Positions 5,284 through 22,177 of a stretch of 32,592 bases of DNA are shown here, piece after piece (the stretch's first letter is position 1; each line of letters starts with the position of its first letter). The stretch comes from a virus. Made by a program: the position numbers and the translations under genes. The DNA is taken from IMG/VR virus record IMGVR_UViG_3300035643_000005, positions 1 to 32,592 of that record, one strand, 5' to 3'. The notes below the pieces were generated by a model that was not told where the DNA came from, searched no databases, and was given only the letters and a program-made list of their open reading frames with translations.

Positions 5284-5973
5284 TTAATCTGCCTTCACTT
5301 GATTGCGGTACTCATACAGTTGGCGACGCCACCTAGCCCTTCTCGGCCCGCCGGAGGGTTCGCCAAACGATTCATCACACTGTTTTTCGCTAATGAGGCC
5401 GGACTTTATAAGGCGTAGCAGCACAGTGCGCCAGCCCCGCAGCTTTTCGCGTACGGGCACGTCGCGCGCGGATTCGAATTCGTAGAGCGAATATTCCGGC
5501 AGGATACCGGTCGGGCAGTAGAAGAGGTAGCGAAAATTCCTGTCGCTCCAATCGGGACGTGGCGATGCCGCCGTCTGGAAGATGGCCAGATCGCCCGCAA
5601 TTCTTCCCTCGGTCACGTAGAGCGAGGGAATTAACTGCCTTAACCGTTTTATCAGGTCCGACGAAGACAGGAACCTACCCCATGCCGCCCGTTCATCCCT
5701 GATTTCATCCTGATGTTCCCAGCGCTGCGCCCTGACCGTATAGGAACTATTGTTGGATTCGCGCAGGCGGGCGGTGTGTTCCTCAATGCTGAGCCGGGGC
5801 GAGTGCGCGCACAAAGTGCATAAGTCCTTGCGGCCATCGCGGTAAGAACTGTCACGGTCAAAGAATTCGTAGCCCAAGATCCGAAGGCAGCCAATACACT
5901 CTTTGCCCAGCAGATCGCTGGATTCAACGACCTCTTGCGAAACAATGTTGGCCGGATCTTCGAGATCGTGCAT
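5284..5973 (-). CDS. Zinc-ribbon protein of unknown function (229 aa)
   Basis: Residues about 26-60 hold CIGC, then a Y-x-FFDRDSSYRDGRKD stretch, then CTLC. This is a C-x2-C...F...dG...C-x2-C arrangement seen in many phage proteins, sometimes beside HNH-type nucleases. I see no HNH catalytic motif here. The rest, about 150 residues, is rich in Trp, Arg and Tyr and is not recognised. It starts directly after the stop of the upstream gene (TAAATG), so translation is probably coupled. A DNA- or RNA-binding role is possible but only inferred from the zinc ribbon. Confidence 0.65.
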   Translation of the reverse strand: MHDLEDPANIVSQEVVESSDLLGKECIGCLRILGYEFFDRDSSYRDGRKDLCTLCAHSPRLSIEEHTARLRESNNSSYTVRAQRWEHQDEIRDERAAWGRFLSSSDLIKRLRQLIPSLYVTEGRIAGDLAIFQTAASPRPDWSDRNFRYLFYCPTGILPEYSLYEFESARDVPVREKLRGWRTVLLRLIKSGLISEKQCDESFGEPSGGPRRARWRRQLYEYRNQVKAD

Positions 5974-6645
5974 TTAGACTTGTTCCATCGAGAACTCGAC
6001 CAGGTTGGCGGTCGAAGACGCGCTCGATGTTCCAAACACTATCGAGCAGCAGAATTGCAGTCCGGTATAGGCGCTAACGCCGACCAGGTTGGCGAGACCG
6101 GCGCGCGTGGTGTAGGCATTGGTGGTGCCATTGGTGATGTTGCCCCAGAACTCGCCCGCCAGAACCTGCATCGCGGAATCCCACAAAACCGTAGCCTCAA
6201 CAATGAAATTGCAAGGGCCAGAGGCTAGGTTGGTGCCGCTGGATACCGAGGCAATTCTCTTGCTGGAGCTGGCGGCATTGCCTTGAGTGATGTAGAAAGT
6301 CACCGTCTGGGCATTGGTGGTTGCGGCCTGGTTGTTATATTTGCCCGTAGCCCGGATACGAAAGGCGCGACCATCAAACGAGCTGCTCTGGAAAAACGGC
6401 CGGGGTCGGCCCTGGTAAGCGCCCATAGCGATTGGGTTGCCTGACAGAGCCTGCGGAATATTCGGATCGAAGGGACCCATCGAGCCAACGATTGTGCCCT
6501 GAGTTAGAGCCTGAACAACCGCCGTGGTCGATCCGGTGACCAGAAACAACTGTTCGGCCGTGGTGCTCCCGGTCAAAGTTTGAAGCTGAAACGGGTGCCC
6601 GCTGGGATAGTCGCTTCGTAGCACAAGAAACGAATCGGAATTCAT
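5974..6645 (-). CDS. Beta-sandwich virion protein, paralogue of the 20874-21437 protein (223 aa)
   Basis: The ATG at 6645 is preferred because AAAGG precedes it; the frame extends to 6705 without a better site. The C-terminal two thirds align by eye with the protein at 20874-21437. Both share DGxxFRxRxxGxxNNxA, an IAS/IAT-x-S strand, a WDS motif, an aromatic GLQF motif and a terminal EF(S/T)(M/L)E(Q/R)V. Ser/Thr/Ala/Gly-rich beta strands suggest a surface-exposed structural protein such as a decoration, fibre or baseplate-like part. It follows the methyltransferase-glycosyltransferase gene. Precise role unknown. Confidence 0.7.
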   Translation of the reverse strand: MNSDSFLVLRSDYPSGHPFQLQTLTGSTTAEQLFLVTGSTTAVVQALTQGTIVGSMGPFDPNIPQALSGNPIAMGAYQGRPRPFFQSSSFDGRAFRIRATGKYNNQAATTNAQTVTFYITQGNAASSSKRIASVSSGTNLASGPCNFIVEATVLWDSAMQVLAGEFWGNITNGTTNAYTTRAGLANLVGVSAYTGLQFCCSIVFGTSSASSTANLVEFSMEQV

Positions 6646-6705
6646 TGATTTACCTTTGGGTTGAGAGTTTTTTGATTTTTCGAGGCCCCAAGCAGCGGGC
6701 GGCAC

Positions 6706-8070
6706 TTAATGAACTTGTATTTCGGATTTTTCGTTTATAGCTACATCTTTCTTCATGTCCTTGGCTCTTACCAAGGCGAATCCGAAGCCTTGATAAGGCG
6801 AGACTGAGCCGTGGCGCACGGGATATGAATCCTCGGGCAAAACGTAGGGGTTGCCCCGGTCGTCAAAATGCACGGGCAGCACTCCGCCATGCGCCATGCC
6901 TCTCATTCCAGCGTCGTATACTTTATTGGAAAAATACACGTCGTCAGTCATGTGGAACTGGTTAGAAAGCACGCTGGAATCTTCCTGCACTGGGAAACCG
7001 GCTTCTTTCGCCTCTTTGATGCTGCTGATGTCCTTGAACCACGGCTTCGGGATCTTTTCCAGGGCCGACGCTTTTATCAGCATGCAGCCGGTGCCGACAA
7101 CTTTGGCTTCAAAGATCTCTCCGGTTTTCCACTTCCAAAAGGGGCCATCGCCAATATCTTTTGAGACAATGGGCGTCGCCGGACAGGTTTTGGTGCAGTA
7201 GATGCCGCCGCAAAACGCGACATCGTCATCGGCATTCTCGATCCCGTAGAGCAATTCATGCACCGCATGCGAGGGCGGCGCTGTGTCATCATCCAAGAAA
7301 AGGATGTATTTGGCAGCCACGTTCAGGGCTCGCTCGCACAGGTAATTTCGCGCCGCATCCCGCTTCATGCCCTTAACCGTGAAATACGAATAGTTCGTAT
7401 TCATGGGCACCGACAAAGTAGCCAGCGACATCGCCCACTCCGGAGCAACAAAGCGCCCGGAAAATGGAATACAAATAGATAAGGTCGCCGTCCTTATCTT
7501 CGGCTCTTTAAGCGAGGCGTATGGGATATGCTTCATCGGATGGGGAGATGTTTCCCGATACCAGATAGTCGTAAACTGAACGACCGGCGTATCTTCGCCC
7601 AGCACTTCTTTGAAGGCGCGGGAGACATCCTCGTCGAAAGCATCATGGCCGCAGATCAAACCGCCAGGAGCCAGCCGGGGCAGCCAGCGTTTTATGTCGC
7701 GTACTACATTCTCGTAGTCGTGGTCGCCGTCAATAAAGACCATGTCCGGCGAACAGTCTACGGTCGCATTGGCGTGGTCCTGTTTGATTACCTGCAACCG
7801 GCCTTGCAGGCCGTCCATGTTTTCCATGAAGCGGTCAAACAATCGTTCGCGCTCTTCCGCCGGGATTTCTATGTCACGCGGACCTTTCCAATCATCAACC
7901 GCATAGACTATCCCGTTAGTATTGTCGGCCATGGCCCTTGTCGAGCGGCCCAAATACGAGCCGATTTCAACAATGACCTTGTGCTGAGCGGCCTGCTGGG
8001 CCAGCCACTCCAATTCGCCTTCCTGCATGTAGCCCTCGATCCCGAGGGCTCTCGATATGTCAACTGCCAT
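6706..8070 (-). CDS. Methyltransferase-glycosyltransferase fusion (454 aa)
   Basis: Residues 1-165 form a class I SAM-dependent methyltransferase of the Methyltransf_24 type: VEIGSYLGRST (34-44, SAM loop), VDDW (58-61) and FIDGDHDYENV (112-122). Residues about 195-420 form a GT-A glycosyltransferase: ICIPFSGR, LFLDDD (258-262, the metal- and nucleotide-sugar-binding DxD), GGIYCTKT, GTGCMLI and TDDVYF (375-380). The second half matches the separate protein at 21503-22177. The gene sits between a phosphatase gene and a virion gene. The likely role is sugar addition and methylation on virion protein, phage DNA or a host surface; the target cannot be told. The start abuts the preceding stop (TAAATG). 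Confidence 0.88.
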   Translation of the reverse strand: MAVDISRALGIEGYMQEGELEWLAQQAAQHKVIVEIGSYLGRSTRAMADNTNGIVYAVDDWKGPRDIEIPAEERERLFDRFMENMDGLQGRLQVIKQDHANATVDCSPDMVFIDGDHDYENVVRDIKRWLPRLAPGGLICGHDAFDEDVSRAFKEVLGEDTPVVQFTTIWYRETSPHPMKHIPYASLKEPKIRTATLSICIPFSGRFVAPEWAMSLATLSVPMNTNYSYFTVKGMKRDAARNYLCERALNVAAKYILFLDDDTAPPSHAVHELLYGIENADDDVAFCGGIYCTKTCPATPIVSKDIGDGPFWKWKTGEIFEAKVVGTGCMLIKASALEKIPKPWFKDISSIKEAKEAGFPVQEDSSVLSNQFHMTDDVYFSNKVYDAGMRGMAHGGVLPVHFDDRGNPYVLPEDSYPVRHGSVSPYQGFGFALVRAKDMKKDVAINEKSEIQVH

Positions 8071-8700
8071 TTATGTGATCTCTGTCTGCTTATCTAACCT
8101 GGGCTTAAAGATCGGCTCGACATCGAGCTTGCCGTTTTGTATGTAAATCGCCGCCACGCCGCCCGGTTCAACTAACGCACGCGTATGACAACCGGCGATC
8201 ATGGTGCCAGCCTCATGAATGATGCTGGAATGGATAATCAGCAACACCGGCATCCCAGATCTCGCGCCCAGATCGATAGCGTCGATCAAAAGCGGTCGAA
8301 CCCGCACCTTAAAATGATTTAGCGATTCGCCTTCCGGGATGGGTACATCTGGATTGGCGGTGTGATAATCAATGACCTTCAGGTTTTCGCCGTTCTTCGG
8401 TTTGCCGCCAAGGTAGCCCACATTCCAGGCTTGCAATCCCGGATTATCAAGCAGTTCTTGGTGCGGGTAACCTTTCCGGTCTGCAATCAGCTTGGCGGTA
8501 TCGCGGGTGCGCTTCCTGCCAGAATGGCCGATCAGAGAAACATCGATAGGTTCAAAATAATAGGCCAGAGTATTTGCGTCCCGCGTACCCGCTTTATCCA
8601 GCGGTGCGTCAACGGGACCGCGAAAGGCGTGATGCAGGTTGAGATCTGTCGTGCCATGACGCGCCAGGTAGACGAGAACGTGTTTTTCGGAATTAGCCAC
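8071..8700 (-). CDS. Histidine phosphatase superfamily protein (209 aa)
   Basis: The ARHGTTDLN motif is the phosphate-binding RHG signature of the phosphoglycerate mutase-like (histidine phosphatase) family. HSGRKRTRDTA supplies the second Arg, and LLIIHSSIIHEAG the second catalytic His. The usual acidic residue after the Arg block is replaced in NPGLQAWNVGYLGG, so the proton donor may differ. The GTG at 8700 is preferred, with CCGGAA upstream and an 8-bp overlap with the previous stop; a TTG at 8715 lacks a ribosome site. Placed before the methyltransferase-glycosyltransferase gene, it may act on sugar phosphates or nucleotides (inferred). Confidence 0.85.
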   Translation of the reverse strand: MANSEKHVLVYLARHGTTDLNLHHAFRGPVDAPLDKAGTRDANTLAYYFEPIDVSLIGHSGRKRTRDTAKLIADRKGYPHQELLDNPGLQAWNVGYLGGKPKNGENLKVIDYHTANPDVPIPEGESLNHFKVRVRPLLIDAIDLGARSGMPVLLIIHSSIIHEAGTMIAGCHTRALVEPGGVAAIYIQNGKLDVEPIFKPRLDKQTEIT

Positions 8701-9094
8701 TTTCGTTCCGGGCAAGAGCCGCCGTGGTTACAGATGCAGCGAAAGGACCAGCAGAAACTGGCGCGGGCGCGGCTTCTTCAGGGGGCGGCTCGGCGATGAT
8801 TGACTCTACAATGGATTCAACCTCACTTCTCGCGGCTTGTCGCGCGCACTCTTCCGCAAGCCGGATTTCCGCAACTAAGGCAGCCAGATCAGGATGACTG
8901 ACATAGGAAGCCTGCCTGTCGAGCAGGATCTCAACGGCAGCCCTGCGCCATTCATGCGGGGCGGACTCGTTGCGCGCCAGATCCCGCAAAACTTCTGCGG
9001 TTAATGGCCCCAGATGCGCCTCGCGCTGCTCGAACATCAACTGCTTATGCGCTTGGGGCGTCCACGCCGTAGTGTTTGGCTTGATTGATTTCAT
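8693..9094 (-). CDS. Small helical protein of unknown function (133 aa)
   Basis: The middle is helical and rich in Ala, Glu and Arg. The last 40 residues are Pro/Ala/Glu-rich and probably disordered (EPPPEEAAPAP). No family is recognised. The start overlaps the upstream stop by ATGA, and the end overlaps the phosphatase start, so it is embedded in a translationally coupled series. It lies soon after the capsid gene. Confidence 0.6.
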   Translation of the reverse strand: MKSIKPNTTAWTPQAHKQLMFEQREAHLGPLTAEVLRDLARNESAPHEWRRAAVEILLDRQASYVSHPDLAALVAEIRLAEECARQAARSEVESIVESIIAEPPPEEAAPAPVSAGPFAASVTTAALARNESG

Positions 9095-9471
9095 CCCAGC
9101 AGTATGTACTCGATCGGAGTGGACGAGGCAGATGCGGTGATGGATAATGCGCTAATTCCGCTGGTGGCGTTGGTCTCAGTGAAGGCGATCATCGAGCCCG
9201 GCTGTAGGGTGACGATGCTAGCGCTGCTCCCGCCCTGCGGCGTCCAAGTCGCGCTCACAGTCGCACTGGTGCTGAGATTCTTGATGTAACAGAGCTGCGT
9301 CGGACTTAGCGGCAAGTTTACCGTCGTGGCGGTGGTGCCGATGTACTGCGATTGGGAATACTCAAAGATGGTGCCGACATACTGAAAGTTGAGGGCTTTT
9401 GCGAGTTGGACGCTTCCCGACAGGTTGTCGGTCATGGTGATGTTGCCGGTAAGAGTGCCTGTAATAGCCAT
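9091..9471 (-). CDS. Small beta-rich structural protein, possible capsid decoration (126 aa)
   Basis: The ATG at 9471 is preferred because AAAAGGA lies just upstream; the frame continues to 9504 without a better site. The protein is almost entirely Ser/Thr/Ala/Gly beta strands with few charges. It includes an LPLSPTQLCYIKNLS segment and a WTPQGGSSASIVTLQPGS segment typical of small jelly-roll virion domains. It is the next gene transcribed after the major capsid gene, separated by about 310 bases and a GC hairpin. A head decoration or head-fibre role is plausible from position only. Confidence 0.65.
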   Translation of the reverse strand: MAITGTLTGNITMTDNLSGSVQLAKALNFQYVGTIFEYSQSQYIGTTATTVNLPLSPTQLCYIKNLSTSATVSATWTPQGGSSASIVTLQPGSMIAFTETNATSGISALSITASASSTPIEYILLG

Positions 9472-9782: not shown

Positions 9783-10769
9783 TTAGCTGGAGCTGGTTTC
9801 GCTCTGAAGACGACGGATAACCATCGTGGAACCAGGACGAAGCGTGTTGGTGTATTTCACGTTATAGCTGACCCAGCCGCCGATTTGACGCGCGGGATCG
9901 CTAACGCTGCCTTGCGCCGGAGCTTCCTGCACCATCAAGCGGTAGTTCTTCTCGCCGCTCTCGGGATTCTTTCCCAGGAATACGGAGAAGATTGCATCAT
10001 CAGAGAAGACATACGTGTTGTAGTACGTATTCGAGCTGATGGTGACGCTGGGCGCAGTGGTGGTCTGCTTGAAGCGGCAGCCCGCGAATTCGATCACATC
10101 CTCATTGGCCAGCGGGGCCAGCAGCTTGTCAATACCGCTATCCCGCCGTTTTAGAATGTCGGACAGGCCGTTGAAGCTGGTATCATTCAGCACGTCGTGG
10201 ACCACAAGGGGATGAATGATTCCGCCCCAGTAGCCGTCCTTAGTCAGCGGACGGGCATTGACGCCCGCCAACTGCTGTATCGCCGTACGGATATTGTTGG
10301 CCGTAAGATAGCTGCCGTTCGCCAACTGAATATTAACGGTGCCATCTACGCCGGTAGAGGCGTCTGCGGTAAGCTGAACCAGCGAGTTGAGGGTGAGGGC
10401 CAGCCGATAATTCAGCTCGGTCGCCAGGTTCTGGAGCAATGACGGATCATCGATCGCCACGTCCATTGCCAGGTCGGATGAGTTAATAAAATCGGCATAC
10501 TGGCCGATGGTAGCGATGATCTTCGTCGAAGATTCGGTGATCGGCGAGCCTACAGTACCTTCCGCAGCCTGGTTAGTGTTGCCGCTCAGGAGCGAATAGG
10601 TGAAAAACTGAATTTGGTTCCCCGAGCGCAGAGGAAGCGGCTTCTGCTTCGTCATGCTCATAAACGGGGTCTGGGCCTTCAGGTTGGGAATTGCCTGCCG
10701 CTCATAGTAAATGGCTACAAGGTTGGGCAATGCACCCGAGGTCAGAATTGAGGCCGGTGAATAAGCCAA
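9783..10769 (-). CDS. Major capsid protein, N4-gp56/P22-like HK97 fold (328 aa)
   Basis: The sequence pattern fits the N4-gp56 family of coat proteins: YYERQAIPNLKAQTPF near residues 22-37, a GNQIQFFTYSLLSGNT segment, an EGTVGSP loop, IGQYADFINSSDLAM, and a C-terminal GGWVSYNVKYTNTLRP strand. The length of 328 suits the family. The start is TTG, with GAGG seven bases upstream; no nearer ATG or GTG is available. The scaffold-like gene precedes it, the classic order for a capsid gene, and a GC hairpin follows. It forms the icosahedral shell. Confidence 0.9.
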   Translation of the reverse strand: MAYSPASILTSGALPNLVAIYYERQAIPNLKAQTPFMSMTKQKPLPLRSGNQIQFFTYSLLSGNTNQAAEGTVGSPITESSTKIIATIGQYADFINSSDLAMDVAIDDPSLLQNLATELNYRLALTLNSLVQLTADASTGVDGTVNIQLANGSYLTANNIRTAIQQLAGVNARPLTKDGYWGGIIHPLVVHDVLNDTSFNGLSDILKRRDSGIDKLLAPLANEDVIEFAGCRFKQTTTAPSVTISSNTYYNTYVFSDDAIFSVFLGKNPESGEKNYRLMVQEAPAQGSVSDPARQIGGWVSYNVKYTNTLRPGSTMVIRRLQSETSSS

Positions 10770-10797
10770 AGTAGTACCTCGTTGTTGCTACATTCCT

Positions 10798-11937
10798 TTA
10801 GCGCCGACTTTGGCTTACATGGCGGCGGACAGCGGCGAAATGAGCCGTGATCTCCGCGTCGCTCATGCGGTCAAAATCTTCGTCTGAGGGCGGCTGTTCG
10901 CTATCCGGCTGGCGCGCGGTTGTGGTTTCGCGCTGGCGGATGCCAAGGCCCGCTCTCTGTCCCACCCGCACGTTCGCAATGCGCGGATTGGGGGCGGGAA
11001 CGGCAGGCTGCGCTGGGGGCGCAGTCTCTGGTTCTTCCTCTTCTTCCTCAAGATCCAGCTCAAGCAATCCATCCTGGGCAAGATCTTCGAAAGCCTCGTC
11101 GAGGCTCTCGGGGGTCCAGTGACCCCGGTCGTACAAGAGGTTCATGATTTCGTTTTGGTTGGTGTCGGTCAGCGTCCGATTGAGTCTGTAGCGCGCCAGC
11201 CATCCCACCATGGCCTTATAGTTCTCATCGCACATGACATATTCGGGATGACGCGCCTTGAAAACGCGAGCGACCGATTCAGCTTCTAATTCCTTCTTGG
11301 CCAAGCGGCCTTCGCTGGCCAGGCTTACCAGTTGTTCTATGGTCAGTCCCGAGCGCTTCTGGAAATAGGTGTCGAAGGCCAGGGCGGGATCGGTGTTGAG
11401 CTGATTTTTAATTTCGTAGATTTCGTCGGCGGTCAGGTTACGCAACTGGGGCACAACCTCGGTTGACTCGGCGGGCGCGGCTTCAGGACGGGCGGTGAGC
11501 TTGAGTTTGCGGTTCAGGTCGCGGATCTTGCGGGTGGCGTTAATCTTGCCAGCGGCGACGTTAGTCCACATCTCATCCTTGGTCTTGCCGTAAAAGATTT
11601 CGGCATTAGCCGCTCCGGAATCAAGGATGGCTCTCCAGCCCTTGTTGGTTTTCTCAACCGTGAGGGAGGAGCCATCATCGTAGGTAATGACTTCCGGCTG
11701 TGGTGCAGGCGGCGCGGCCGGTGCCGCCGCTGGCGGCAGAGCCGGGATGGCCGGTGCTTCGGGGGCTGCGGCCGGTTGCGCCGCAGACCCATCTGGTAAC
11801 TCTATCGGTTCCGGTCTTGTGTCTAGCGGAGCGAACAGTTCATCAGCAAACCCATCAGGTACTGCCGGGACCTGCGGATTCTGCGGTTGGTTTAGGCGTT
11901 CTAAATCGACGGGTACAAATTGTGAAGGTGTGGCCAC
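10798..11937 (-). CDS. Scaffold-like head assembly protein (379 aa)
   Basis: Located directly upstream of the capsid gene. The first 100 residues are Pro/Ala-rich and disordered. A short beta motif, EVITYDDGSSLTVEKTNKGW, is followed by helices, a very acidic stretch ending in EEEEEEPE (about 295-305), and a helical, basic C-terminus ending in RRHVSQSRR. This mix of disorder, helices and a basic tail is typical of tailed-phage scaffolding proteins, which chaperone coat assembly and leave the head. The start is GTG at 11937 with AGGAG six bases before it. The family assignment rests on composition and position only. Confidence 0.75.
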   Translation of the reverse strand: MATPSQFVPVDLERLNQPQNPQVPAVPDGFADELFAPLDTRPEPIELPDGSAAQPAAAPEAPAIPALPPAAAPAAPPAPQPEVITYDDGSSLTVEKTNKGWRAILDSGAANAEIFYGKTKDEMWTNVAAGKINATRKIRDLNRKLKLTARPEAAPAESTEVVPQLRNLTADEIYEIKNQLNTDPALAFDTYFQKRSGLTIEQLVSLASEGRLAKKELEAESVARVFKARHPEYVMCDENYKAMVGWLARYRLNRTLTDTNQNEIMNLLYDRGHWTPESLDEAFEDLAQDGLLELDLEEEEEEPETAPPAQPAVPAPNPRIANVRVGQRAGLGIRQRETTTARQPDSEQPPSDEDFDRMSDAEITAHFAAVRRHVSQSRR

Positions 11938-15311: not shown

Positions 15312-15590
15312 ATGGATAAGCTAACGAAAATTTTCTTCTTGTTAATCGCGCTAGGCCTTTGGGTGAATGTGTTACGTAGACCGACGCCCGTTCACGCGTC
15401 GATGGATTATTCCTCCCTAGTCTACAGCGAACTTACAGACATCAATGGTCATGTGTCATCCATTGACTCCAACACCGCCGACCTCAAAACAATACATTGC
15501 AAGGGAAAATTTACCGTGAACGCATGGGGCAGCGTTGAACCCAATATAGGCGGCTATGAAGTAGAGCTGAGGTGCGAACCGGGAAAATGA
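15312..15590 (+). CDS. Moron-like membrane-anchored or secreted small protein (92 aa)
   Basis: ATG at 15312 with AAGGGAG eight bases upstream. The N-terminus is K-T-K then FFLLIALGLWVNVL, a signal anchor or signal peptide, followed by RRPTPVHAS, where cleavage could occur after VHA. The remaining about 60 residues hold two Cys (IHCKG, LRCEPG) that could form a disulfide outside the cytoplasm. It is on the opposite strand to all neighbours, has its own promoter and sits between portal-side and terminase genes, a classic moron setting. It may alter the host envelope or exclude other phages; this is inference. Confidence 0.72.
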   Translation: MDKLTKIFFLLIALGLWVNVLRRPTPVHASMDYSSLVYSELTDINGHVSSIDSNTADLKTIHCKGKFTVNAWGSVEPNIGGYEVELRCEPGK

Positions 15591-18404: not shown

Positions 18405-18604
18405 TGGCTGGCTTTTTCCTTCGCGCACTTGAAGCAATCGGTGTAGGGAAAATCAACTAATCCTTGAATTTTGCCGCCGATGATGTCTTGGTGGACATCT
18501 AGCAGAACTCCTGCAGGGTCCTGGACCGAGGGAGTTGCGATTTTGCCAATGTGCCCGCAGCGAAACCTCACCGCGACCATCTTGAGCTTATAGTCCTGGT
18601 ACAT
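18401..18604 (-). CDS. Small CGH/C-x2-C zinc-ribbon-like protein (67 aa)
   Basis: The chain holds FRCGHIG (16-20) and DCFKCAKE near the C-terminus, a split zinc-ribbon arrangement, around a beta core (VQDPAGVLLDVHQDIIGG). The ATG overlaps the previous stop as TGATG, so translation is coupled. Function unknown. Confidence 0.6.
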   Translation of the reverse strand: MYQDYKLKMVAVRFRCGHIGKIATPSVQDPAGVLLDVHQDIIGGKIQGLVDFPYTDCFKCAKEKASQ

Positions 18605-19011
18605 CAGCTTTTCTTGCGCGCTTGGCTAAGCGCGATGGCGATGGCTTGCTTCTGGTTCTTCACTACCGGGCCTTTCTTGCTGCCACTGTGAAGCGTGCCT
18701 GCCTTCCATTCACGCATGGTTTTTTGAACTTTGGTTTTGGCGCGCTTACTCTTGGGGTAGGATCGTTTCTTGCCCGCACCTAAAGCGCTGGCAGCGGCGG
18801 GCACAACTCGCTCGCCTTTATGCACCTTCGCCCAGCCGGTGCGTTTTACCCGGCCGCCTTTCTGGAAGGCTGGCGGAAGCGCTGTCGTTGTGGGTCGCCC
18901 CAGCACCTGTGTCGGTGACACCGGTCGTTCCGGCGTTCCAATCGGAGCGCGTGGGCGTGGCTCACGCGGTTCTGGCCCGAGATTGCGAATTGCGGCGTTA
19001 GTGGGAAGCAT
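18604..19011 (-). CDS. DUF6496-like basic protein (135 aa)
   Basis: The C-terminus matches the pattern I associate with DUF6496: TMREWKAGTLHSGSKKGPVV followed by KNQKQAIAIALSQARKK. A middle GGRVKRTGWAKVHKGERVVP motif is also common in phage proteins. The N-terminal 50 residues are Pro/Arg-rich and disordered. The ATG at 19011 overlaps the previous stop (TGATG) and has GGAGG ten bases upstream; a TTG one codon earlier is less likely. Role unknown; the basic charge suggests contact with DNA. Confidence 0.7.
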   Translation of the reverse strand: MLPTNAAIRNLGPEPREPRPRAPIGTPERPVSPTQVLGRPTTTALPPAFQKGGRVKRTGWAKVHKGERVVPAAASALGAGKKRSYPKSKRAKTKVQKTMREWKAGTLHSGSKKGPVVKNQKQAIAIALSQARKKS

Positions 19012-19301
19012 CAAGCAAGCGCCTCCGCAGGTTGCATGCCGCCTGGACCCTGAGCTTGTGGCGGAGGCGTTTCCATATGCTCGCCGACGTGGTCTTGCAG
19101 GGCGGCGAGATCGGGCACGGCGTGCTCTTCCGGCTCTTGCGCTATTTCGCCCGGCCGGGGCCTGAATTCATGGCGGACAATGTAGCCGCCATTAGCGGCG
19201 TGCCGGATGCGCATCTCGTGCACATGCCGCCCGCCTTTTCTTTTGCTTTTAGCTTTCTTTTTCCTTGGTCCGCCCATAGCGGACCGAACGCGGTCGGCCA
19301 T
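19011..19301 (-). CDS. Small basic/acidic protein of unknown function (96 aa)
   Basis: Begins with a basic tail (PRKKKAKSKRKGG), then VHEMRIRHAANGGYIVRHEF, which looks like two beta strands, then an acidic His-containing helix (EEHAVPDLAALQDHVGEHM) and a Pro/Gln tail. AAGG lies eight bases before the ATG. It starts four bases after the preceding stop. Such proteins are frequent in environmental phages near structural genes, but I know no function. Confidence 0.6.
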   Translation of the reverse strand: MADRVRSAMGGPRKKKAKSKRKGGRHVHEMRIRHAANGGYIVRHEFRPRPGEIAQEPEEHAVPDLAALQDHVGEHMETPPPQAQGPGGMQPAEALA

Positions 19302-20873: not shown

Positions 20874-21437
20874 CTAGACGCGTTCGAGGGTAAATTCGCG
20901 AACCAGTACAGAGTCGCTGGCGTTCGCGGTAGCGAAGGTGAACGACGGGATGAACTGTAGCCCAGCCACGGTCGAGACCGTAGTTACCGTGCAGTGGCTC
21001 GTGCTGAGCGCTGTGAATATGCCGTCCAGCAATGCCTGCGAGGCGAGCCACAGTTTGGTGCTCGTCGAGTCCCAGATGCAAAGCAGTTCCGCGATGAACG
21101 GATAGTTGGCCGTGGTAGCCGCGACCTGGGAGAAGGTGGCAATCTGTGTGTTGCTGGCAATAGTGGAGCTGGTGCCTAGGTACAAGTTGAGAGTGAACGA
21201 GTTGCTTGCGCCGTTGTTTACGACACCGGAGATGCGGACGCGGAACGGATGGCCGTCCAGTTCGCTGCCGGTCACATCTGGCGGGGGCTGGACGAACAGG
21301 CCAGTCCCAGCCGCGAGGGCGGGAGAGGGAAGTCCGGGATAGGTGCTGGCCGAGGGAACGAGTAGAGTTGTCTCGCTAGTGCCTCCGATGGTCTGCGTGA
21401 TGTTATACCATCCCGAAAATGTGTTTACGTTTGCCAT
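20874..21437 (-). CDS. Beta-sandwich virion protein, paralogue of the 5974-6645 protein (187 aa)
   Basis: Shares DGHPFRVRISGVVNN, IATFSQ, ELLCIWDST, GLQF and VREFTLERV with the homologue 14 kb away. The strand pattern and Ser/Thr/Ala content indicate a beta-sandwich virion protein. AAGGAAAACCTA precedes the ATG. It follows the glycosyltransferase gene, just as its paralogue follows the other glycosyltransferase gene, so the enzyme and virion gene appear to have been duplicated as a pair. The virion protein could be a glycosylation target (inferred). Confidence 0.72.
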   Translation of the reverse strand: MANVNTFSGWYNITQTIGGTSETTLLVPSASTYPGLPSPALAAGTGLFVQPPPDVTGSELDGHPFRVRISGVVNNGASNSFTLNLYLGTSSTIASNTQIATFSQVAATTANYPFIAELLCIWDSTSTKLWLASQALLDGIFTALSTSHCTVTTVSTVAGLQFIPSFTFATANASDSVLVREFTLERV

Positions 21438-21502: not shown

Positions 21503-22177
21503 TTAATTCGTGCCTTTTTCACGAGGCAATTTCGGATAGCTGTCTGCCGGAATGTCATACCACTTACCATTGACATCCCAATGCAGACACCAGATGTTCG
21601 AATCAGCGACAATCTTGTAGTTTTTGTCGCGGACTTTCTTGCAGAAATACAGATCGTCGGTCACCGTAGTTGTGCCCGCCGTCGGGGTAGAGGGCTCATC
21701 CACGGTTTTGAAATAGGGCTTTTCGAGCTGCTCGAAGATTTCCACCCGGATGAGCATGCAGCCCGTCGCCAAGCCGTTGACTTCAAAAACATCGCCCATC
21801 TTCCATTCCCAATAGGGGCCGACGCCCTCATCCTTAAACACCAGCGGCACGGCCGGGTCGGTCTTGGTGCAGTAGATGCCGCCCACCACCGCCACATCCT
21901 TGTTCTGCGGCTGGTCCAGGTAGTAGGTGAGTTTGGTCAGGCAGTTCTTGGTGGGAGTAACGTCATCGTCCAAAAAGAATAGGTACTTCACTTTATGTTG
22001 CACGGCCAAGTCGGCAATAGCATTGCGCGCCTCATCAACATCCTTGCCATGTACCGGCGCGAAGGCGTAATTGAACGAAAGTGGCCGGTCCATCATGGCC
22101 AGGGTAAGCGCCCATTCTGGGCGGACCGGATTGCCCGAAAAGGGCAGGCCAATCATCAGGCCCCTTCTTGCACTCAT
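21503..22177 (-). CDS. GT-A glycosyltransferase (224 aa)
   Basis: Single-domain GT2-like enzyme. LFFLDDDVTP (66-75) carries the DxD motif for metal and nucleotide sugar. GGIYCTKTDPA, GPYWEWKMGDVFE, ATGCMLIR (137-144) and TDDLYFCKK (173-181) follow in the order expected. It matches the C-terminal half of the methyltransferase-glycosyltransferase protein at 6706-8070 nearly motif for motif. GAGGAG precedes the ATG. Substrate and target unknown; it lies at the start of the late operon, close to virion genes, so virion or surface modification is a reasonable guess. Confidence 0.87.
   Translation of the reverse strand: MSARRGLMIGLPFSGNPVRPEWALTLAMMDRPLSFNYAFAPVHGKDVDEARNAIADLAVQHKVKYLFFLDDDVTPTKNCLTKLTYYLDQPQNKDVAVVGGIYCTKTDPAVPLVFKDEGVGPYWEWKMGDVFEVNGLATGCMLIRVEIFEQLEKPYFKTVDEPSTPTAGTTTVTDDLYFCKKVRDKNYKIVADSNIWCLHWDVNGKWYDIPADSYPKLPREKGTN

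Follow-up and report, generated by a model that had tools for sequence, protein, structure and literature searches.

Which molecule is modified, and how, by a phage gene that joins a methyltransferase to a glycosyltransferase and lies, directly behind a histidine phosphatase gene, among the genes for the virion? This question is raised by part of the genome of a tailed soil phage related to viruses of Acidobacteriota, a stretch of 32.6 kb (IMG/VR record IMGVR_UViG_3300035643_000005, positions 1 to 32,592) that is called the window here. The original prediction had read the locus as a small pathway of three steps, in which a phosphatase, a glycosyltransferase and a methyltransferase modify a virion protein rather than DNA.

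Setting of the fusion gene

The minus strand of the window encodes its late genes, which run from the tail spike through a small open reading frame (ORF), a glycosyltransferase gene termed GTb, o20874, small ORFs, terminase, portal and a scaffold-like gene to the major capsid protein (9783..10769, (-), PHROG 1357). These are followed by two small genes, the histidine phosphatase gene HisP, the fusion gene MT-GT, and then o5974, o5284, o4744, o3945 and o2890. Tunturi_3, an acidobacterial podovirus and one of the Tunturiibacter phages Tunturi_1, _2 and _3 (PMC11924767), is the closest isolate; its major head protein is matched at 39% identity and its portal at 35%. A position between capsid and tail genes, as originally described, was confirmed by this comparison: the major head protein lies upstream of HisP and MT-GT, and homologues of Tunturi_3 gp10, gp13 (tail) and gp12 (structural) lie downstream. 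The gp10 homologue is o5284 (5284..5973, (-)), a conserved core gene that comes next after the o5974 slot.

The capsid gene of the window is uninterrupted, and group I introns (Rfam RF00028) are found in or near the major capsid gene of the relatives L026, L042, L047, L051, L058 and L069 (for example L058:8883-9059, and L047:8088-8255 and 8976-9164), two of them in some relatives and at differing positions; capsid genes are also interrupted in many further loci. The variable stretch between the capsid gene and HisP can carry two tRNA genes (L047:13077-13149 and 15371-15442). Annotated acetyltransferases occur inside the virion modules of the isolates, namely gp5 and gp22 of Tunturi_3 (PP885686) and gp34 of Tunturi_1 (PP887698); one of them adjoins the capsid gene and one lies near the site at which relatives carry the MT-GT insertion. 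An ORF at 18604-19014 of the window ends in about 40 residues (about aa 91-134) that recur at 51-67% identity in unrelated phages (L104-L111, L117, L119-L121, L123, L125, L128), mostly between glycosyltransferase (GT) and methyltransferase (MT) genes.

Domains of the fusion protein

MT-GT (6706..8070, (-)) is a single unbroken ORF of 454 codons. Pfam and PHROG matches, a predicted structure with its fold matches, and the full-length orthologues described below agree on an N-terminal SAM O-methyltransferase-like domain and a C-terminal GT-A glycosyltransferase, so that the fusion recognized in the original prediction holds. Residues 34-143 match Methyltransf_24 (PF13578; E 2.2e-19, 70.7 bits against a cut-off of 26.3), and this score together with the SAM-binding glycine motif VEIGSYLGRS (34-43) places the domain among the class I SAM methyltransferases of that family; an IDGDH motif follows at 113-117. 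Residues 191-389 match PHROG 1574 (E 2e-10). The predicted model, which is of middling confidence (pLDDT 69, built with nine sequences), places a Rossmann methyltransferase domain at about residues 15-169, followed by a GT-A domain at about 193-414. The assignment to GT-A is based on this fold and on a DxD motif (260-262), of which D260 and D262 are invariant in five fusions. Since the match to Glycos_transf_2 (PF00535) reaches only 18.8 bits and the gathering cut-off is 23.3, the domain would not be filed under that Pfam family.

The best fold match of the GT domain is A197 of the virus STIV (PDB 2C0N; Z 18.5 over 174 residues, 22% identity), followed by collagen-type lysyl glycosyltransferases; A197 was again the top match when a GT profile was compared with the PDB (E 0.0027), and the wall teichoic acid glycosyltransferases TarP and RmlT are also among the fold neighbours. 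The MT domain is nearest to MeT1 of Mycobacterium both by fold (Z 15.4, 24% identity) and by sequence (E 3.5e-4), with the macrolide-sugar O-methyltransferases MycF and SpnH next by fold (Z about 14), and it thereby resembles a carbohydrate O-methyltransferase of the MeT1/MycF/SpnH type. A match to PHROG 2675, labelled 'DNA methyltransferase', is probably annotation noise, as sequence and fold both lead to sugar O-methyltransferases. A fold comparison of each domain had been proposed along with the original prediction, and it points to sugar chemistry: as the GT domain resembles A197 and the MT domain resembles sugar O-methyltransferases, the predicted folds are most consistent with transfer of a sugar that is then O-methylated.

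Coupling of methyltransferase and glycosyltransferase

Whether the two activities belong together was examined with a profile of the GT domain only, which was built from four sequences, was blind to the MT domain and found 80 loci in 58 clusters. Among the 50 GT-bearing records tested, 11 carry a Methyltransf_24 gene, and in 10 of these 11 it lies within 1.5 kb of the GT or is fused to it (chance P 5.5e-8 given the record lengths). The arrangement differs between phages, as it can be an MT-GT fusion (L088), a GT-MT fusion with swapped order (L134, L144, L157) or a pair of separate neighbouring genes (L110, L121, L128). Recurrence of a coupling in different forms commonly indicates joint function, and we conclude that the two belong together.

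A profile scan with the fusion itself yielded full-length MT-GT orthologues in L245, L246, L247 and L248, the last being the contig of L088. They are 43-50% identical to the protein of the window, and 129 residues, those of DxD, IDGxH and GHD among them, are invariant. The four records represent a second acidobacterial-phage-like lineage related to Tunturi_1 and Tunturi_2, in which MT-GT is preceded by a gene with 38-41% identity to the virion structural protein gp31 of Tunturi_1, and the downstream genes match gp32/gp33 (tail fibre) in most cases; at the corresponding site of Tunturi_1 there is no MT-GT, and gp31 and gp32 are adjacent. As these copies are flanked by homologues of gp31 and gp32/gp33, the same accessory gene is located in the virion modules of two different groups, both with relatives among the phages of Acidobacteriota. 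Tunturi_1, _2 and _3 are the nearest isolates of both carrier lineages and, unlike the window, have no match to MT-GT or HisP.

A nucleotide-pattern scan of IMG/VR with the fusion alone had found nothing, its single-sequence patterns being too strict, whereas the later profile scan succeeded. When bacterial and archaeal genomes were scanned with a two-sequence profile, no relative was found, but as only two peptide patterns were used, bacterial homologues may well exist. A search for the major capsid protein in the records of the second lineage, carried out without a positive control in the same search, found none.

A candidate acceptor

The gene directly downstream of MT-GT is o5974 (5974..6705, (-), likely start ATG 6645), whose beta-rich product is modelled as an all-beta protein (pLDDT 81) with weak fold matches to tail-spike and lectin-like domains, and which has no match in isolate phages. 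A second glycosyltransferase gene, GTb (21503..22177, (-)), had been overlooked in the original prediction; it is a paralogue of the GT domain (43%) that lacks an MT domain and lies directly upstream of o20874 (20874..21437, (-)), which a profile search identified as a paralogue of o5974. One phage thus carries a duplicated pair of a glycosyltransferase and a beta-protein. Members of the o5974 family are also found in two copies in several relatives (L001:5439-6116 and 10741-11418; L018, L022, L063), in one case with a copy between the portal and scaffold genes.

An alignment and tree of 32 family members could relate o5974 to the GT. A GT directly precedes o5974 in the window, L051 and L008, and the three o5974 proteins that adjoin a GT in the slot behind HisP (window, L051, L008/L084) form one clade (support 97/89) and have in common an N-terminal YP(S/T)GHPF, YPSGHPF in the window, that is absent from the other family members. 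By their portal genes these three phages do not group together, a single clade being rejected (p-AU 7e-80); in the HisP and o5284 trees, a single clade of GT carriers is neither supported nor firmly rejected (p-AU 0.066 and 0.135), so that the decisive test is that on the longer portal alignment only. Because the o5974 copies form one clade while the portal genes split these phages, the GT and the YP(S/T)GHPF variant of o5974 appear to have moved together. Adjacency, this co-inheritance and the all-beta model make o5974, on the evidence of three phages, the most likely acceptor and the leading candidate.

This linkage has its bounds. It comes from three phages and could reflect hitch-hiking of the cassette through linkage; moreover, most relatives carry o5974 without having any GT. 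In three further loci (L221:5880-6989, L224:4443-5797, L230:3845-5143), HisP, a small ORF and a GT are followed by a different small virion-like protein of 128-139 residues (NLxYIGNGPT) which the o5974 profile does not recognize; the GT thus has partners other than o5974, and the acceptor may vary between phages. Raised Ser/Thr or sequon content as a sign of O- or N-glycosylation was looked for in the GT-linked o5974 proteins and was not seen (S+T 23-25% against a mean of 22.7%).

Possible targets of the modification

We favour, with somewhat more confidence than doubt, the view that MT-GT is an accessory, horizontally moving and bifunctional coat-modifying enzyme that glycosylates and O-methylates a virion protein, most likely o5974. 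The GT-A domain would transfer a sugar from a host nucleotide sugar to this protein, which is made late in infection, and the N-terminal MT domain would then O-methylate the transferred sugar with SAM. The acceptor, the donor sugar and the placement of the methyl group on the sugar are what we infer for this scheme, as is any benefit, which may consist in a changed surface chemistry, in adsorption or in protection from decoys or proteases. More tentatively, and with a probability that we put a little below even, the locus would be a mobile cassette of acceptor plus modifier, in which a GT, sometimes fused to a sugar-capping methyltransferase, moves with the virion-protein variant that it modifies.

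Phage glycosyltransferases often alter the surface sugars of the host, and an action of MT-GT on host envelope glycans, for example to change a receptor or to stop superinfection, would be in keeping with TarP and RmlT as fold neighbours. However, MT-GT has no membrane segment (the best 19-residue hydropathy is 1.3) and its GT is apparently co-inherited with a virion gene, and we therefore regard an envelope target as unlikely.

Glycosylation of DNA bases by phage glycosyltransferases is likewise common, and GTb has a marginal match to PHROG 842 (HMC glucosyltransferase, E 0.004), so that glycosylated and methylated bases which block restriction could be considered as the product. Against this stands the late virion-gene setting of the GT, which repeats in unrelated phages, where the families commonest beside it include major head, portal, head-tail adaptor and tail proteins. 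The fold neighbours of both domains act on sugars, proteins or glycolipids and not on DNA, and a gene of the thymidylate-synthase/hydroxymethylase type is present in none of 21 GT-bearing records including the window, a count that is suggestive only, because the records are fragments and base modification has other routes as well. We regard a DNA target as improbable, and the earlier preference for a virion protein over DNA is upheld as the likelier reading. That the MT domain methylates a side chain of the protein acceptor, the fusion then making two separate marks, also has little in its favour, as the class I fold does occur in protein methyltransferases (Foldseek matches include PRMT1 and CypM) but the best matches in structure and sequence are carbohydrate O-methyltransferases.

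The histidine phosphatase

HisP (8071..8715, (-)) starts at TTG 8715 or GTG 8700, the latter being the right-hand edge of the interval originally picked out. Its match to PF00300 (E 3.2e-22, 79.6 bits against a cut-off of 21.7) assigns it to branch 1 of the histidine phosphatase superfamily, in agreement with the RHG-type phosphatase noticed before. R19, H20 and G21 (the RHG motif), R69 and H162 are invariant in all 32 distinct homologues; an assignment as CobC, GpmB or PspA equivalog was not obtained, the best score being 56 against a curated NCBIfam score of 162.9 bits.

If the phosphatase, GT and MT acted in sequence on one virion modification, the three genes should be expected to stay together, and some of the gene order is compatible with this: HisP and MT-GT abut (8071/8070), and a GT lies behind HisP, directly or one small ORF away, in five further phages of the group. 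The distribution of HisP speaks against it. Of 80 fetched loci with a related capsid gene, 40 have HisP in the position that it occupies in the window, with o8693 before it and o5974/o5284 after it, and in most of these relatives it stands there, catalytically conserved, without a GT or MT; the 50 full records of capsid-related relatives contain no MT-GT at all, and in two of them (L008, L051) the slot between HisP and o5974 holds a GT by itself. A HisP profile retrieved 62 loci after dereplication; in five of them a GT follows HisP immediately or after one small gene, and none has the MT. Conversely, a histidine phosphatase was found in none of the 50 other GT-bearing records and none of the 4 other records with an MT-GT fusion, by a search that detected it in 13 of 14 control genomes.

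Since HisP is kept without MT or GT, while GT and MT-GT records elsewhere lack HisP, its distribution marks HisP as an independent core gene of the phage group, one that merely borders the insertion slot of the accessory MT-GT and is, on this evidence, unrelated to it. Of the three-step pathway, the coupling of GT and MT and their sugar chemistry are supported, the latter by the folds, and membership of the phosphatase is not; homologous phages keep MT and GT together but not the trio. A joint action of all three enzymes is accordingly given a low probability, and HisP would remain outside the mechanism proposed for MT-GT, although the GT behind HisP in six lineages of the group leaves room for some link between these two. 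That a histidine phosphatase with conserved catalytic residues belongs to the core genes of a phage virion operon is an observation in its own right.

Comparison with known systems

Few cases of phage coat glycosylation are known, and methylated sugars, if present on virions, would add a new chemical layer to it. The recurring pairing of MT and GT provides a genomic signature by which such systems can be found, and the link of the GT to one neighbouring gene names a specific candidate acceptor. Tunturi_1 and Tunturi_3, which are close to both carrier lineages yet have no MT-GT, offer laboratory backgrounds for a direct test. If the cassette reading is true, phages that share hosts in one bacterial phylum swap a coat protein together with its methylated-sugar decoration.

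MT-GT would belong to a known type, that of the virus-encoded coat glycosyltransferase, but it has a fused sugar-methyltransferase-like domain and may form a cassette with its acceptor. In the virion glycosylation of mycobacteriophages we know of no fused methyltransferase. By the description relayed in PMC12619734 (Freeman et al. 2023), these phages carry phage-directed sugars on capsid and tail proteins, and on that description they are like MT-GT in the proposed sugars on coat proteins. A197 of the archaeal virus STIV is an essential glycosyltransferase that is thought to glycosylate the capsid protein, its donor and acceptor being unproven (PMC10551542). It shares with MT-GT the GT-A fold, the viral origin and a proposed coat-protein target, but it is a minimal single-domain enzyme without an MT, whereas the GT of the window is fused to a domain like a sugar O-methyltransferase and its gene is accessory. 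MeT1 (PDB 6G7D/6G80) is the sugar 1-O-methyltransferase of the methylmannose polysaccharide and methylates a mannoside (PMC9883506); it works beside a mannosyltransferase of its own gene cluster, but as a separate enzyme with a cellular polysaccharide as substrate, while the phage domain is a fused, putative sugar methyltransferase. Related MT domains (31-33%) are finally found in Synechococcus phage S-SRM01 (QPX48312, annotated as a glycosyltransferase, the same region also encoding a sulfotransferase and a nucleotide-sugar epimerase) and in the carbohydrate O-methyltransferase of the Lokiarchaeota virus WyrdV1, both matches spanning the MT domain only and leaving the GT part unaligned.
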